A stretch of 64,000 nt of DNA from Sodiomyces alkalinus F11 (lineage: Eukaryota > Ascomycota > Sordariomycetes > Glomerellales > Plectosphaerellaceae). Within the stretch, counting starts at the first letter, position 1. Every line of letters starts with the position of its first letter. Below, one piece after another: positions 10,246-18,247 of the stretch. The stretch lies in assembly GCF_003711515.1 (NCBI RefSeq), contig NW_021167082.1, positions 877,310 through 941,309 on the forward strand, written 5' to 3'. The notes under the pieces are model-generated. The model was not told where the DNA came from, did no database searches, and saw only the letters and a list, made by a program, of their open reading frames with translations. The translations under genes were made by a program, and so were the position numbers.

Positions 10246-12229
10246 TTATTTCTTGCCAGTTGGGATGGCAAACAAGACAAGCTTATCACCCTCGTTTAGG
10301 CTCTTGTCAACGCGGTAGAATCCCCGCCTCTCGAGCTGAATAATGTCGTCCTTCTTCAGCTGCGCAGTCCCCTCATCGCACCAGGCGTTCTCACTCCACG
10401 CGGTGTTGGGGTTGAGGAAATCCTCCAACTTGTCGTCCTCCTCCAGCTTGTCCTTCGTCAGGAGGTAGTCAAAGTCCCAGAGCTCGGCCGGTATGAGCTT
10501 GGTGCCCTTCGCCGACAGCCACGTCACCTTCTTCTTGGTGCTCTTGAAGTCGCCCTTCAGGTTCAGCTCGGCCGTGATGCCGGCGACCGGGTCGCTGCCC
10601 GTGATCTCCCGGATGATGACGTTGCCCCACGACATGGCCGTGATCTCCTCGTCCTTCGTGAACGTCTTGGCGTCCGCCTGGTCCAGCCAGATCTCGTCGG
10701 AGAACACCACGTTCTTCTTCCCGACCTCGGCGTTCTTGGGGTGCTTGGGACGCTCCTCGGTCCGCGGGGCCTCCGGCACGTCGGCGCCCGTGAGGGTCAC
10801 CTTGACCCTGTCCTTCTCGGCGATGGCGGTGTGACGCGGCGCGATCGGGTCGATGACCTTCTTGTTCAGCGCCCAGAGGCCAGCCCAGTCCATGTTCACG
10901 ACGTTGCGGCTGGGTCCCTGCTTGATGATAAACTCGCGGAGGGCCGGGATGGTCAGGCCACGACGACGGATACCGCGGATCGTGGGGAACCTCGGGTCGT
11001 CCCAGCCAGACACCTTGCCCGCGTCCACGAGGGAAGCCAGTTTCCGCTTGGAGAGGAACGTGCGGACGAAGTTGATACGGGAGAAATCCCACATGTAGAC
11101 TTTGCGAATCTTCAGCGTGTCGATGAACCACTGGTACAGCGGGTTGCGATCCGTGTACTCGGTAGAGCGAAGGGCGTGGGTCACGCCCTCCAGTGAGTCG
11201 ACCAGCGGGCAGGCGAGGTCGTAGGTGGGGTATACCTTCCAGGTGGTGCCCGTCCGGTGATGCGCGTCGTCGACGTTGCAGCGGTAGATGACGGGGTCCC
11301 GCAGGGCCTTGTTGGGATCGTCTACGGACACCTTGGCGCGGATGCAGTTCTTGAGCCCTTCCTCGGAGCCCTTGGTCATCTCCTCGAAGATACGCAGGTT
11401 TTCCTCGACAGTTCGCTTCCGGCGCTTCGATTCAATGCCGTCCATACGCTCGGCTCTCATGGTCTCCTGGTCGGTATCATCGGCGTAAGCGCGCCCTTCG
11501 GAGATGAGGCGCTTACACATATCGTATAGGTACTGGAAGTAGTCGGACGTATAGGTCAGGGTGTCGTGTGTGATGCCCATGAGATGCAGATCCTCGACGA
11601 TGGAGTCTTGGAACTCTTCCTTCTCCTTCGAGGGATTGGTGTCATCGAGACGGAGGCGAAGTTGGCCCTTGTAGGCCTCGTGGGCGAAGTAATCGCTTAA
11701 TAGAGCAGCCTTGGCGTGGCCGATGTGAAGATAACCGGACGGCTCGGGCAGGAACCGGGTAACAACGCCCTGATCGACATTCTGAAGCGCGAGATCGAAG
11801 TTTCCACCTGCCTTGCTGCCCGCCACGATCTTTGCCTTCCTGGCAGCTTCGGCGGCTTGGATTTCAGCCTGAATCTCGGGATGTGTTTGTTCGATGAAAT
11901 TGAACCTGGGAAGCAAGCAACCGAGTTAGGAGGAATTGTCCTGGAGTAAGGACTGGCTTGGATCAAGGGATGCAATCTTGCGCAGTCTGTCAATTCGATT
12001 TGACGCACCATCTGGTCAGGTTGGCAAGAGTACCCTTCCGCAGGATTCCGACGGTAGCCTTGTTCGTCTTAAGGGTCTGCCAAATCTTCGTTTCAAGCTC
12101 GCTCAGCTTGTAGCCCTCAATGTACGTTCGCAAGGTCAAGTGTTTGTCGAGGGCGCGAAGGTGCGGTTCAATGGACCTGAAATCCCCCGCGAGAATCGTC
12201 GGCAAGGCTTGAAGCTCGTCGGGCGTCAT
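10246..12229 (-). CDS. GUS1: Cytosolic glutamyl-tRNA synthetase, 626 aa
   Basis: Exons are 12229..12009 and 11905..10246; the 103-nt intron runs from GTGCGT to CCCAG and splits a Trp codon. The enzyme charges tRNA-Glu with glutamate for cytosolic translation. It is class I: the HIGH signature is in PEPSGYLHIGHAKAAL (about residue 134), and the KMSKS equivalent is FLSKRKL in the middle of the protein. The C-terminal half carries the beta-barrel anticodon-binding domain typical of archaeal/eukaryotic GluRS. The N-terminal region of about 75 residues precedes a linker and would correspond to the shortened GST-like appendage that docks on Arc1 in yeast; it is shorter than in yeast. No mitochondrial presequence is seen. 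Identity is very secure from motifs and full-length colinearity. Confidence 0.96.
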
Positions 12230-12534
12230 GGTGGGCCAGTCGAGGGTGCGTGGAGGAAAGGAGATGGGGGTTGAAAGGGATCAGAAGGGGAAAAGGAGTG
12301 GTCACGAATGTCTCGTGCGTTGGCGCGGGGTGTTGTGTTGGTTAATGTCGGGAGTGACACGACTGATATTTTGTGGCGGGGTCGAAAACCCAATGGAGGG
12401 GTAAGTGCTGTGCTTTGCGTACCAGCCAGTCACTAGGTACCTAGCCTGCGGAACAGCCCACTTTGCCGATAAGAAATAAGATAACCACGATAAGCAGCTA
12501 GTAGCTCCTTCGTACCTTACCAAGGAGGTTACTA
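12230..12534. other. Promoter side of GUS1, junction with the RIPped element
   Basis: About 300 bp upstream of the synthetase gene. It contains one TAGGTACCTAG palindrome (about 12434..12444) and ends at the left terminal inverted repeat of the degenerate element. No coding signal. Confidence 0.5.
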
Positions 12535-12620
12535 ATAAACTGATATTAAACTCGGTGGCTGAGCTAAGGGTAGGTATAGGGCTAGTAGGGCGACTTATTA
12601 AGCTAAGGATAGGTGTAGGG
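12535..12620 (+). repeat. Left terminal inverted repeat (mutated arm)
   Basis: This 86-bp arm pairs with the reverse complement of 17685..17770. Relative to the right arm it carries A in place of G at nine positions; eight of these are clearly TpG to TpA, and the first terminal base is ambiguous. Confidence 0.85.
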
Positions 12621-12740
12621 GGTAGTTAGTGCTAGGTTATATAATATACGTGTATGCCTTAACTAATCTTTAGGTATTAATAGAGGGGTAAATAAGTAAG
12701 GGGTAGTATAGTAAAAGATAGTGATAAATTAAGGCGATAG

Positions 12741-15700
12741 GAAACGATTCGGAAACGATTCGGAAACGTTTCGAAAAGTTTAAATAATTTCTTTAGTATA
12801 GATCTCGACTCGGAAATACATCCTAATAGTGAGATTTAGTAAAGGGAGGACTTACTAGAGCCAGAAAGTTAAGAAGACGACTTTTATAACTTAAGATTTA
12901 TTAAAAATAAGAATCTAAGACTATATCTTTATAGACTATATCCTAATCGTTAACCTCCTCTAGATATAATCTAAAGGAATTAAGTATAGCAGGTATATAT
13001 ATAATAAATCATACTTTATAGTATTCTTTACTAACTAAGATTAAATTCTATTAGATATATAAAACGACCTTATTCTTATTTCTATAGCCGCGTATACTAA
13101 TAGAAGACTTACCCCGGGTACTCGAGCTATAAAAGTGTAAAAAATCCTATATATAGCTAGGATTTCTAAGATGCCTAAAAGCTGTGTTAGAGGTATAGCG
13201 ATTATTATCCTATTAGATATTTTAAGTAACGAAGAGAAAAATACTCTATAGAAAGTAGTAGGTAATACCTTTTATCGCGTTATTTATTATTAGTACTAAT
13301 ATACTCTACTCTAGATTTAGTACGAAATAGCTTAAAAATATCCTACCTTATAAACTATAAGTGCTGCACTTAGAGACACACCGGTATAACGACATATATA
13401 CACCTATTAAGGGGGGAAAGCTTATTAATATCTTCCTACTATAGACTTCTATCACGATCGCGTCTTTAGTTAGCTACTTAATTAGATTAGTTAACGAAGA
13501 GTATAAATAAAAGACCTTACTTTATAGAAAAAGGCCGTTAGGTAAGTTAGAAAGCGTATTAGAATACCTTTTAAAGCAGAACTAATAGAGTCTTAGATAA
13601 ACGCAGGTAATATAATTAAGATTTAGTAAAAAGTCTACGTATTTTAAGCCGGAGGAAACTTATACGCTTATAGTAGATTCTAGCGGCTACCACGTTAGTA
13701 TTACCTATAAGACCTAAGATTATTTTAAGGTATTTCTAATTAATTAAAGTATCTTACGGATTTCTAATAATATCGTGTACGGTGCTAGTCTTAGACCTTA
13801 GCGGATACGACGCGTCGTTATCTAGTTACTATTATTCCCTCGATTTTTTACCCTTATCTTAATCTTATTCGATAGACTCTTAATCCCACTTTACATGGTA
13901 TTCTTATAAATCCCGATAAGATATACTATTTTTTCGTATCGAATCGTAGAAAACGCCGGATATATAGTACGTTAGCCTGGAAACGTTTCGGAAACGATTC
14001 TAAAGACCTATCCTGATATTTCTAAATAGACGAAGTGTATATCGTGGGCCCTAGCGAAATCCAAATACGATAATACGATATCTAGTTTAGATTTTTTATT
14101 CTATACGATTTTAATATAATACTATAGGTTATTATAACCTCCTATAGAATATACACCTATCTTCCCCTACCTCCTTTAAAGGCTCCCCCGTCTATTATTA
14201 ATAGAATTACTCGAGTCCTCGCGAAAATTAAGAATCCGATAATTATATTAAATATATTCCTTAAATTAAGTGAACTAAAAGAGTTTATTACTAAGTATAA
14301 AAGGAAAATAATTATAGATATTTATATAAGTCTTACGAATACGGACTACCTTCGATATATTATTCGTAAATAATAGATTATTCCTTTCCCTTAAGGCGGT
14401 CGGAGTCTTACTTTAGCTCTAGAGCAGACTAAAAAGGCTAACTAACAGTTATACGTAAGATTCCGCTACTATCTTAAGATATATATATACTAATCTATAT
14501 ACTATATTCTAGTATATCTAGTACTTATACTAATCCGAGCGTAACTATATAGTAATCTGTTTTTTTTATAAGTAAGTAAAATAATAGACTTTTCCCGATA
14601 TAAAGTCTTTTTTTATCGATACTAACTATAAACACGTTAATAGTGTAGAGTAAAAGGAAATTATTTAGGCCTAGTATAGTTAAAACTCAGAAAGAGATTA
14701 GTCCCCGAATTATTACTAAATCGTTTTGGAATCGTTTCTAAACCGTTTCTAATACCTTTTAGTGCTTCCTCTAGCTAAATACTATACTAACTCCGAGATA
14801 GCAGAGATATATCTTTATATATTCTACCAGGTTTTTAAGATCCTTGGGGATAAGTATAATATATACGTAAAGTGGAAATACCTTCACGGAACTAGACTTC
14901 TTAGGGTAACCTTAGATTAGGCTTTACTAGTAATCCAGGGGTTTAGTAGATACCTCTAGTAAAAATACCAGCTAAACGAATCCTAGGAAATATAAGTCTT
15001 TTATAGTCTACGTCTTTATATAGTTTATTTTAGGCATAGTATTAAGAGTATTCTAGGCGGTAATCTAGTAAGAGGAGAAGGCTTTACCTACCGGATTATA
15101 ATAACTCTACTAGAATACCGGACACGGGAGGACTATAATAAGTTATATAACGCGATTAGCCGTGAGTTTTATCTTTAAATAATTCAGAAACGACTAGGAA
15201 ATGTTTTAGAAACGATTCGGAAACTATTTAGGATACTTATATATCTTCTAGGGATAATACCGTAGTTCCGAGACTAGACTACTTATAAGCGCCTCCTATG
15301 TATCGCGATAGGCTTTTATTAAGCTACCTCGAATATCCCGTATAAGGATTAGAGACTTATTTCTGATAATTCGAATACGGTCGAGGTTATATATTAAGCC
15401 TTATACGCGTGGACTAGGCGAAATATTTATATCCTTAAGGTTATTAAGGGGTAAGTTTAATATAATCTCTCGTATACCTACCTTTTAACCTTACTAGATA
15501 TCACGATTACGATTAGAATCTTATCTTAAGAGATTTTACGACGCGTTCGCTATAAATCCCCGGCTTATAGAGAAATACTAGTATTAGCGGTCGGCTTAAG
15601 AGTTAAATGAATCGGAATAGTAAGTTCTATTCTTTTCTACTATATAAGGGAAAAGTCCCTAACCTAAGAATATTATAGAAAGAAAATTTCTTTAGGTGGA

Positions 15701-17403
15701 TACCGACTATAATAAGGCTATTCGTGATCGTTTACGTAGTCGTCCTTTAACTATTAGCCGATTAATTTCGAGATTACCTTTTAACCCTCCTAGCGATTTT
15801 AGGGGCTTTAATAATAATAGTATAGAATCAGATTCGCGAAGTTCTCTAGTAAGAAGCGTAAGGAGTATATCGTTAAGTGGAGTTCCTTTAAGACGCTCTC
15901 GAAGTTAACGCTAAAATACACGTAATCTTTACTAGCAGGCTACCCTTAGGCAGGTTTAGGCTTTATAAGCTTCCTTATCCTATAAGGAGAGAAATCTTAC
16001 TATAGAGGAATACCATCGCGAAATAGAACGAAAAGATCGTGAATTATAAGCGTAAATTAAGAGGCAAAGGCTTAAAGATAAGCGGCGTTTCTAGCTAGAA
16101 TTAAGGTGTATTAAGCTAGAGAGGGAATTATTACTTTATTCCGATAGTTAGAGGTAAATAGAAGGAAATTCTTTAGGTATCGTAATCGTGGTTTATATTC
16201 TTATAAGAACGTAAAATAAAAAAAGACCTATTATAAGTAAAAAACTCCTCTATATATACTAAATTATTATTACCGTCGCTATAAAAATAGAAGCTCGGCA
16301 GCTTAGAAACGTTTCCTAAATATTTCTAGGATATCTAGTTACTCCTTATTATTAGGAGTACAAGGACGGGCTCTATTAACCCGATAGTTATAAGGGGGGG
16401 GGCGGGCAGGAGCCGGGAATTCAAATATAAGAATTATTAGCTAAAGACGTCTAATTTATATAGGAGTTACTAACTTACTAGACACTATTTCCCTATCCGC
16501 TATATCTTTATAGCGATATTTAGCCTAGACCTTATAAAAGTGGTCGTAGTTAGAAGGAGGGTAGTCTAGAGAATATATCCTATTAGTTAAGTATAGTATT
16601 AGGGTAAGGAAAGATAATATACTACGGCCGATAGAGTTCTAGTCTGTATAAGCCTAGTAACGTTTATCGTTCTGCTAGCTAAAAACGTCTATTTTTATAT
16701 AAACGATATCGGGCTAAGATTTCAGATATATTAATAATAGTCTCTAAATCGTTTCGGAATCGTTTCCTATATTTCTATTATTATCTTTTAGGATAACCCT
16801 AAGATATATATCCTTAGCCACTACTTTAGCCTTATAAGAGGTATTAAGCTATTTATTAATACTAAGGGCGAGGTTCTATATAGTCTTATAATATTAAGCG
16901 GTGCGAGAATCATTATAAGCGTTAAGAGAGCCCGACACGGAAGGAGTAGCTTAAGTATAGTAGGTATAGTAAATATATTTCTTAAAGGCACCTAATAACG
17001 AGAATTTAAAGCGCTAAACAGATACTATTAGCTAAAGCTTTTAAGCTATCTCGTAAATAATAAGCGACTTATATTAAAACAGAGCTCTCTATTTTCCTTT
17101 AGGTATCAGTAAAACAGCTCTCCCGCTACTATAATAACCTTACCTGTCTTAAGAGGACGTTAGTATAGGATAAGGTATTAGAATACTATATATACTTATA
17201 CTATTAGTCTTAAACTCAGGAAGACTATTATAGCGTTAGCCACTATCCTCCTTAGCTATATACTATTAGTATATAGCCGTGCGTTTATAGTTCGAGGGTA
17301 TCTTACTAAAGATAATAGACGTGGGTATTAGAGGGAATAAGGGTGGTTAGCGTCTAGATCAGAATCGTTTCCTAATCGTTTCCTAATCGTTTCCTAATTA
17401 TTT
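12741..17403. repeat. Seven clusters of an 11-bp motif (GGAAACGATTC or its complement) inside the element
   Basis: Clusters lie at about 12741-12773, 13979-14000, 14718-14750, 15186-15232, 16306-16330, 16745-16775 and 17368-17403. Each has one to four units of GGAAACGATTC, GAAACGTTTC or GAATCGTTTCC, commonly spaced 11 bp apart. The GGAAACG sense predominates on the left and the complementary CGTTTCC sense on the right. Confidence 0.75.
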
Positions 17404-17684
17404 CTAACGAATTTCGTTCAGAAACCTAGTTCGAGTAAGAAAATATACCTAATTATAATAGATAAACTAAAAAAAGTGATAGAGTTAATAGAAAAACTAT
17501 TAAAAAATAGATATTATAATACTATAAAATCACTATATATAAAGATATAGAGTGGTGATAATAGGAAAAGGTCACGAAGACGTGTAGGCTACGAAAAAGA
17601 GGGGAAAAACACGTTAACCTGTTATAACGCGACTCGTGGCTATTAAGAAAACGTTTCCCTATTACCCGAGCTAATCAGAATTTA

Positions 17685-17770
17685 CCCCACACCTATCCTC
17701 AGCTTAACAAGTCGCCCCACTAGCCCCACACCTACCCTTAGCTCAGCCACCGAGTTCAACATCAGTTTAC
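17685..17770 (-). repeat. Right terminal inverted repeat (less mutated arm)
   Basis: The 86-bp reverse complement of the left arm. It still keeps its CpA dinucleotides (for example CCCCACACC), so it seems to have escaped most of the mutation that hit the left arm and interior. Confidence 0.85.
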
Positions 17771-18247
17771 ATATAGTCTCCTTACCTAGGTAGGTACCTG
17801 AGTCTATTTGCGAAAAGATCGATACATAGGTACATACTGTACCTTATTAGGTACTGACCGAGTTATGGGTTCATTCCTCAAGCCTTAGTAGGTAAGGTTA
17901 CCTTAGGTACGATTCGATATTAATACATTCCATAATGTATTATACCTTGGGTCTCACGAGGTACTTATTAATAAAGAAGTTATCCTCGCTACCTGGTATA
18001 TTCGGCGCACACAAGAAGGCTTTGTGGGACATAAAAAAAAGCATAGAGTATGTACACCTTGCAGTATGGGGCAGGCCTTTGAAGTATTGCTACGCGCGCC
18101 ACGCGCAATAGGCATTGAGAAGAAGAAAAGTAAAACCCAACTCCCCCACGGGCTGAGCCCTGATCTCTACCTTATGCTGCCCATATTTCCTCCGGCAATG
18201 TCTGTCGACATGCCTTTACGCAGGCCTGCCAAAGAATAGCTCACCCC
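17771..18247. other. Intergenic, rich in AGGTACCT-type palindromes
   Basis: The segment contains CCTAGGTAGGTACC at about 17785, TACCTTATTAGGTAC at about 17840 and TTACCTTAGGTAC at about 17899. No coding signal is seen apart from a weak 71-codon frame at 18024, which I do not accept. Confidence 0.5.

Follow-up and report, generated by a model that had tools for sequence, protein, structure and literature searches.

A RIP-saturated DNA transposon with unequally mutated terminal arms in Sodiomyces alkalinus F11, most likely a Mutator-like element

Why should one end of a transposon be heavily mutated while the other is nearly spared? This question is raised by an element in a 64,000-nucleotide stretch of Sodiomyces alkalinus F11 (contig NW_021167082.1, positions 877,310 to 941,309), which is called the window here and to which coordinates refer unless another contig is named. 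The element occupies 12525..17780 on the plus strand (5256 bp), as delimited by comparing family members and by indices of repeat-induced point mutation (RIP). We observe an element with definite ends and a target-site duplication, a family of copies in the genome, a RIP signature, broken genes, and arms that are unequal both here and in other copies. With a probability of about 0.72, we read the window copy as a non-functional cut-and-paste transposon, most likely a Mutator-like element (MULE), that is saturated by RIP and whose arms were hit independently.

The host genome (43.4 Mb in 22 contigs) was searched with the right 171 bp of the element, and at least 42 matches were found (40 of 52 candidates scored). 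A BLAST search of the right end had been proposed in the first-pass annotation, which placed the element ends at 12535 and 17770. Sister copies were indeed recovered, and the likeness among family members extends 10 bp outward of these positions, with short direct repeats beyond; the true ends are thus 12525 and 17780. Comparison of the flanks gives a left target-site duplication CTTACCAAG (12516..12524), which is identical at eight of nine bases to the right one, CTTACCTAG (17781..17789). An 8-bp duplication matching at seven or more positions was detected in 17 of the 21 two-ended family members with an offset of at most 2 bases, and in 14 without offset; exact duplications without offset number nine. 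The same score was reached by one of 420 mismatched pairs used as control. The offset is required by the window copy and two other members, and L027, L030, L035 and L038 fell short of the threshold among the 21 tested. The copy on contig 16, omitted from this count and checked later, matches at 7/8 with AT-rich flanks. Duplications in the family are 8-10 bp long, those of 9-10 bp belonging to the window copy and to the copy on contig 1 at 6.08 Mb.

The terminal inverted repeats are 96 bp each, the left at 12525..12620 on the plus strand and the right at 17685..17780 on the minus strand. In both the window copy and its sister on contig 12, the outermost 10 bp of each arm are specific to the end, with GAGGTTACTR at the left and GAGACTATAT at the right. 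The left/right mismatches lie at positions 4 (G/A), 5 (T/C), 8 (C/T), 9 (T/A) and 10 (A/T), none of them at CpA, and the sister's ends mismatch at the same five positions. Inside this outer part, 12535-12620 aligns with the reverse complement of 17685-17770 over 86 bp without gaps and with nine differences, all A in the left arm and G in the right, exactly as noted before. All nine differing G lie in TpG when the base outside is counted; since only 13 of the 38 G in the right arm do so, this has P = 4.4e-6. The earlier statement that no other type of difference occurs thus holds for the 86 bp and fails for the full arms, which carry the five outer differences.

The outermost of the nine differences had been called ambiguous, and it is: at column 12535, 22 of 31 other family ends carry A and nine carry G, and left ends are mostly A, so this site is probably an old left/right difference rather than a product of RIP. 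The other eight changes, from TpG to TpA, look like RIP as proposed, with G the commonest base at seven of the eight columns among the 31 other ends; at the remaining one (alignment column 64) the counts are T 12, G 11, A 6 and C 2, and subfamilies differ there. The arms were therefore once alike over the 86 bp, and the left was mutated with the right mostly spared. Where the four closest arms have TpG sites, the left arm retains 4 and has 10 TpA, against 13 retained and one TpA in the right. The picture of a pristine end beside a ruined one is accordingly right in direction and too sharp in degree, the left arm having kept four TpG and the right having acquired one TpA. Nor can the right arm alone be taken as the ancestral end, as had been suggested, given at least one RIP-type change, the end-specific outer 10 bp, and the arms of other subfamilies, which by eye diverge between left and right from about base 57 inwards.

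The RIP signature extends through the interior. Sliding RIP indices, the other check proposed at the outset, are extreme inside the element and normal in the flanking bins: the 1-kb bins starting from 13001 to 16001 have TpA/ApT of 1.50-1.60 and (CpA+TpG)/(ApC+GpT) of 0.18-0.23, against 0.60-0.70 and 1.05-1.16 in the bins starting at 11001 and 18001. Composition returns to normal at or close to the element borders, with a TpA-rich 200 bp past the right end (31 TpA in 17801-18000). Repeated DNA with C to T transitions that favour CpA, the mark of RIP, is thus what we find. Three genome loci match the DNA-methyltransferase family PF00145 above the cut-off, with open frames of 1307, 769 and 775 aa and no stops in the match; as candidates for RID or Dim-2, these predicted proteins make a RIP machinery in this genome plausible.

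The nearest sister, on contig 12, is 92% identical to the window copy by BLAST and 93% in the multiple alignment, with 307 transitions and 25 transversions over 4870 aligned bases. Nine sites separate their right arms; each has G in the window copy where the sister has A, and each is CpA on the other strand. The sister lies in two parts (L012 and L009, contig 12, 315565-340758), a left one of 0.46 kb and a right one of 4.9 kb about 20 kb apart, and one perfect 8-bp duplication CTACGCAG encloses both. The examined part of the gap between them encodes reverse-transcriptase, RNase H and integrase (below cut-off) domains. The two copies share more C-to-T changes than expected under independence. 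We considered that their common ancestor had been mutated by RIP before both inserted, and set this aside, as shared descent gives the same excess and CpA is nearly exhausted.

Between the arms are the remains of two convergent genes. The larger, a putative transposase gene with many stops, spans 12919..16151 on the plus strand in three in-frame stretches (12919-14440, 14519-15499 and 15681-16151, edges approximate), and the second, recognized by frame-wise conservation and translated matches, spans 16501..17139 on the minus strand, where about 213 aa could be followed. The transversions that separate copies follow a three-base rhythm, and amino-acid likeness is best in plus frames over about 12.9-16.1 kb and in one minus frame over 16.5-17.1 kb. 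Every listed translated match of the two remnants has stops (at least 75 and at least 36 matches, both lists being lower bounds). The matches in other copies break near three arrays of an 11-bp motif, at about 13.98, 14.72 and 15.2 kb, and these breaks may be introns, a guess from sequence. Two distant relatives of the transposase-like gene, L041 (contig 3, 1.173-1.177 Mb) and L042 (contig 1, 1.805-1.808 Mb), have 31-42% identity over short stretches and contain stops; neither matched Pfam above the cut-off.

The 11-bp motif, GGAAACGATTC, contains neither CpA nor TpG and occurs in both orientations. By motif search, a left subterminal array was located at 12740..12772 (plus strand) and a right one, inverted relative to it, at 17362..17394 (minus strand), with further sites at 13979-14000, 14729-14739, 15208-15218, 16306-16316 and 16757-16767. 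The doubled motif has 85 genome sites at no more than two mismatches and none in the reversed control. A total of 81 of these lie within 6 kb of the 39 listed family anchors; of the other four, three sit on contig 2 with a family fragment on either side, and the last adjoins an arm match on contig 3.

Which superfamily does the element belong to? We infer the MULE assignment from arm length, duplication length and layout. The duplications (17 of 21 two-ended copies; eight of nine bases in the window copy) fall in the 8-11 bp range given in a MULE survey (PMC6446971), and the 96-bp arms correspond to the long terminal inverted repeats that are common, not universal, in MULEs. In a table of the same survey an ascomycete Hop subgroup is listed with 85-99 bp arms and one or two ORFs, without a stated duplication length (PMC6446971). 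Some conserved stretches resemble the MULE core by eye and contain a C..H, which would become Y under RIP; codons for H, C, Q and W are lost in this process, and the likeness is a visual judgement for which no test was significant.

The profile searches weigh against the assignment. Translation of the window copy in six frames yielded no Pfam family, and nothing exceeded the cut-off in ten pieces taken from other copies. In hhalign comparisons with eight MULE domains of the host genome, the expected aspartate is in register at a non-significant E of 0.35, other stretches giving 0.75 and 0.44, and two read-through queries found no homologue in a protein database containing fungal proteins. Searches of NCBIfam and of solved structures returned nothing relevant, and neither did a tblastn search of plasmids with the first stretch of the large gene. 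The second gene has no relative outside the host genome among solved structures, the sole such search covering it. The MULE transposase domain PF10551, which carries DDE and C..H motifs, has 44 genome matches, 42 of them with stops, and none is within a two-ended family copy.

Duplications of 8 bp are also typical of hAT. An origin in another superfamily with such duplications (hAT, KDZ or an undescribed one) would account for them as well as for the missing significant MULE match, and we regard it as unlikely. A MULE accords better with the long arms and with duplications of 9-10 bp, as seen in the window copy and on contig 1 at 6.08 Mb. The hAT C-terminal dimerisation domain PF05699 had no genome match, in a search that likewise recovered none of 14 controls.

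Given a RIP-saturated, probably Mutator-like element, is its pair of unequal arms unusual, as the first-pass annotation held? Among the copies about 5.2-5.4 kb long are, besides that of the window, two on contig 1 (3.40 Mb and 6.08 Mb), one on contig 3 (1.95 Mb) and one on contig 16 (0.36 Mb); the contig 12 copy at 0.52 Mb (522 kb) reaches 8.4 kb with internal extra DNA. TpG and TpA were counted over 22 columns in the left and right arms of eight copies and compared by Fisher's test (P uncorrected); at least ten further family copies, not fetched at both ends, are absent from all arm counts. The right arm is spared in the window copy (TpG/TpA left 4/12, right 13/4; P 0.005), contig 12 at 522 kb (4/10, 14/2; P 0.002) and contig 16 (2/14, 12/5; P 0.001), all three passing Bonferroni correction. 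The left arm is spared on contig 3 (11/7, 3/15; P 0.015), which fails it. Not significant are the sister (7/9, 4/13), which leans opposite to the window copy, contig 1 at 3.40 Mb (2/11, 6/9), contig 1 at 6.08 Mb (11/7, 13/4) and contig 12 at 303 kb (6/6, 7/6). Four of eight copies are thus unequal at P<0.05 and three after correction, in both directions, and the asymmetry itself is an ordinary outcome.

The simplest account of arm sparing would be that a position at the edge of homology often lets the arms escape, and that only copies with working arms could insert. Some points temper this. Arms paired at random are nearly as unequal (P 0.19), so that unequal arms need no special cause and the arms behave as if independent. 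The arms were TpG-rich from the start, and a fair comparison of hits between them and the interior would need the original composition of the latter. Edge sparing is moreover not separated from gene conversion by the present data.

Gene conversion is the main rival here: the right arm would also have been ruined and later replaced from a less mutated member. If changes are read as C-to-T, the window copy bears RIP mutations at poor contexts (CpT, CpC, CpG) as far as 17661, 24 bp from the arm; they then nearly stop, 13 TpG sites surviving in the arm. By eye, the window copy and its sister also have left-type sequence inwards of about base 57 in both arms, unlike other subfamilies, and arm-to-arm conversion may have occurred in this lineage. 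However, right-type sequence is retained in the outermost 10 bp, no donor was identified, and spared arms are common among the examined copies, which together make conversion rather improbable.

A second possibility, that RIP acts along one strand per round and the arms, with CpA on opposite strands, are ruined one at a time, is very unlikely. It is consistent with the inward strand of the four closest arms, which has TpG and no CpA, and with the copy-specific changes, which lean as expected (window copy G>A 70, C>T 58; sister C>T 98, G>A 81), although not significantly (P 0.33 and 0.23). In three of the four copies with significantly unequal arms, the CpA/TpG counts of the interior tend in the predicted direction (window copy 57/50, contig 16 46/33, contig 3 45/92), whereas contig 12 at 522 kb tends in the opposite one (148/167, extra DNA included). 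The first 500 bp of the contig 16 copy, arm included, have 21 G>A against 7 C>T, and one of four copy-run tests at CpA fell below 0.05 (G>A, contigs 1/16 pair, P 0.022); strand runs, however, reach or surpass what shuffling predicts in each of the four copies, whether or not the arms are counted. As a cause of unequal arms, strand-wise RIP found no overall support in the two sister pairs tested and is largely refuted for surviving mutations, though many overlaid rounds could mask such a signal. Ordinary base-composition drift or CpG-methylation decay is hardly credible: interior transitions relative to the sister are mostly at CpG (105) and CpT (92), with fewer at CpA (83) and CpC (27), but CpA is nearly exhausted there, leaving the other contexts, eight or nine of the arm changes lie at CpA, and the flanks have normal indices.

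The history that we propose for this RIP-saturated element would start with insertion into a single CTTACCNAG site and a 9-bp duplication. Since related copies were present in the genome, the element would then have been saturated by RIP, with C to T changes mainly at CpA on both strands. The 96-bp arms, at the edge of the repeated unit, would have been hit independently and to different degrees, the left being mutated and the right nearly escaping. A neighbouring gene is Trs120.

Short relatives bear on what spared arms could mean. Eight members that have both ends (L017-L020, L022, L024, L026 and L027) measure 585-618 bp with the outer 10 bp; they share the arms, have a longest stop-free frame of 38-76 aa and, in seven of eight, a duplication at 7/8 or better, and thus qualify as miniature inverted-repeat transposable elements (MITEs). 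Their cores are RIP-depleted and their arms mostly TpG-rich. Three of about 590 bp, on contigs 3, 7 and 1, are about 98% alike over 584-589 bp compared, the transition and transversion counts of the three pairs being 3 and 7, 6 and 6, and 9 and 4. Their cores have 10-12 CpA+TpG per 365-370 bp against 39-43 ApC+GpT, and their 106-bp ends have 12-17 CpA+TpG. As these near-identical copies share a depleted core between TpG-rich arms, the depletion predates their multiplication. The MITE copies on contig 3 at 2.55 Mb and on contigs 4 and 14 have further CpA-to-TpA changes, so RIP, or a similar process, still reaches some of them. Beyond the arms the core has a weak likeness to full-size copies (63% to 12525-12733 of the window, 62% to L031) and aligns with other short members at many different offsets, like tandem repeats. 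The depletion may thus also have been taken over from already mutated DNA.

From these copies we tentatively suggest, at somewhat less than even odds, that RIP does not fully sterilise the family: genes are destroyed, one or both arms often stay readable, and scarred DNA could be carried by transposase made elsewhere. The MITEs of about 590 bp would then be a RIP-saturated core between intact arms, multiplied after mutation and short enough for less further RIP. In a related account, MITEs of Zymoseptoria tritici are reported as less RIP-affected, ascribed to their length, and RIP in Neurospora as weaker under about 500 bp (PMC9970103), slightly below the length of the MITEs here. A retrotransposon strongly mutated by RIP before a later burst, mentioned in the same source, is a partial precedent (PMC9970103). 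Among literature titles and abstract openings, none concerned this transposon family or MITEs multiplied after RIP; several papers treat MITEs together with RIP, so newness of the suggestion is not established. The copy-by-copy tabulation of arms indicates that RIP can spare the very ends that a transposase requires, and this gives a concrete prediction on the origin and survival of short non-coding elements in fungi with RIP.

Compared with known systems, the family resembles Hop and other ascomycete MULEs in its long arms (96 bp), 8-10 bp duplications, and a large and a second gene; it differs in having no significant MULE-domain match and in its family-specific 11-bp motif arrays. In MuDR of maize the two genes are convergent. 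The layout of two genes between long arms is likewise shared with MuDR, a likeness of arrangement only, not of mudrA or mudrB sequence. Fungal MITEs are similar to the short copies in their size, two arms and duplications, and the difference lies in the core, which here is RIP-depleted and common to the copies. With the RIP-mutated transposons of Neurospora and other ascomycetes, the window copy has in common the CpA to TpA changes, the high TpA/ApT and the broken genes; there is no difference in kind, and what is added here is a tabulation of the arms copy by copy.

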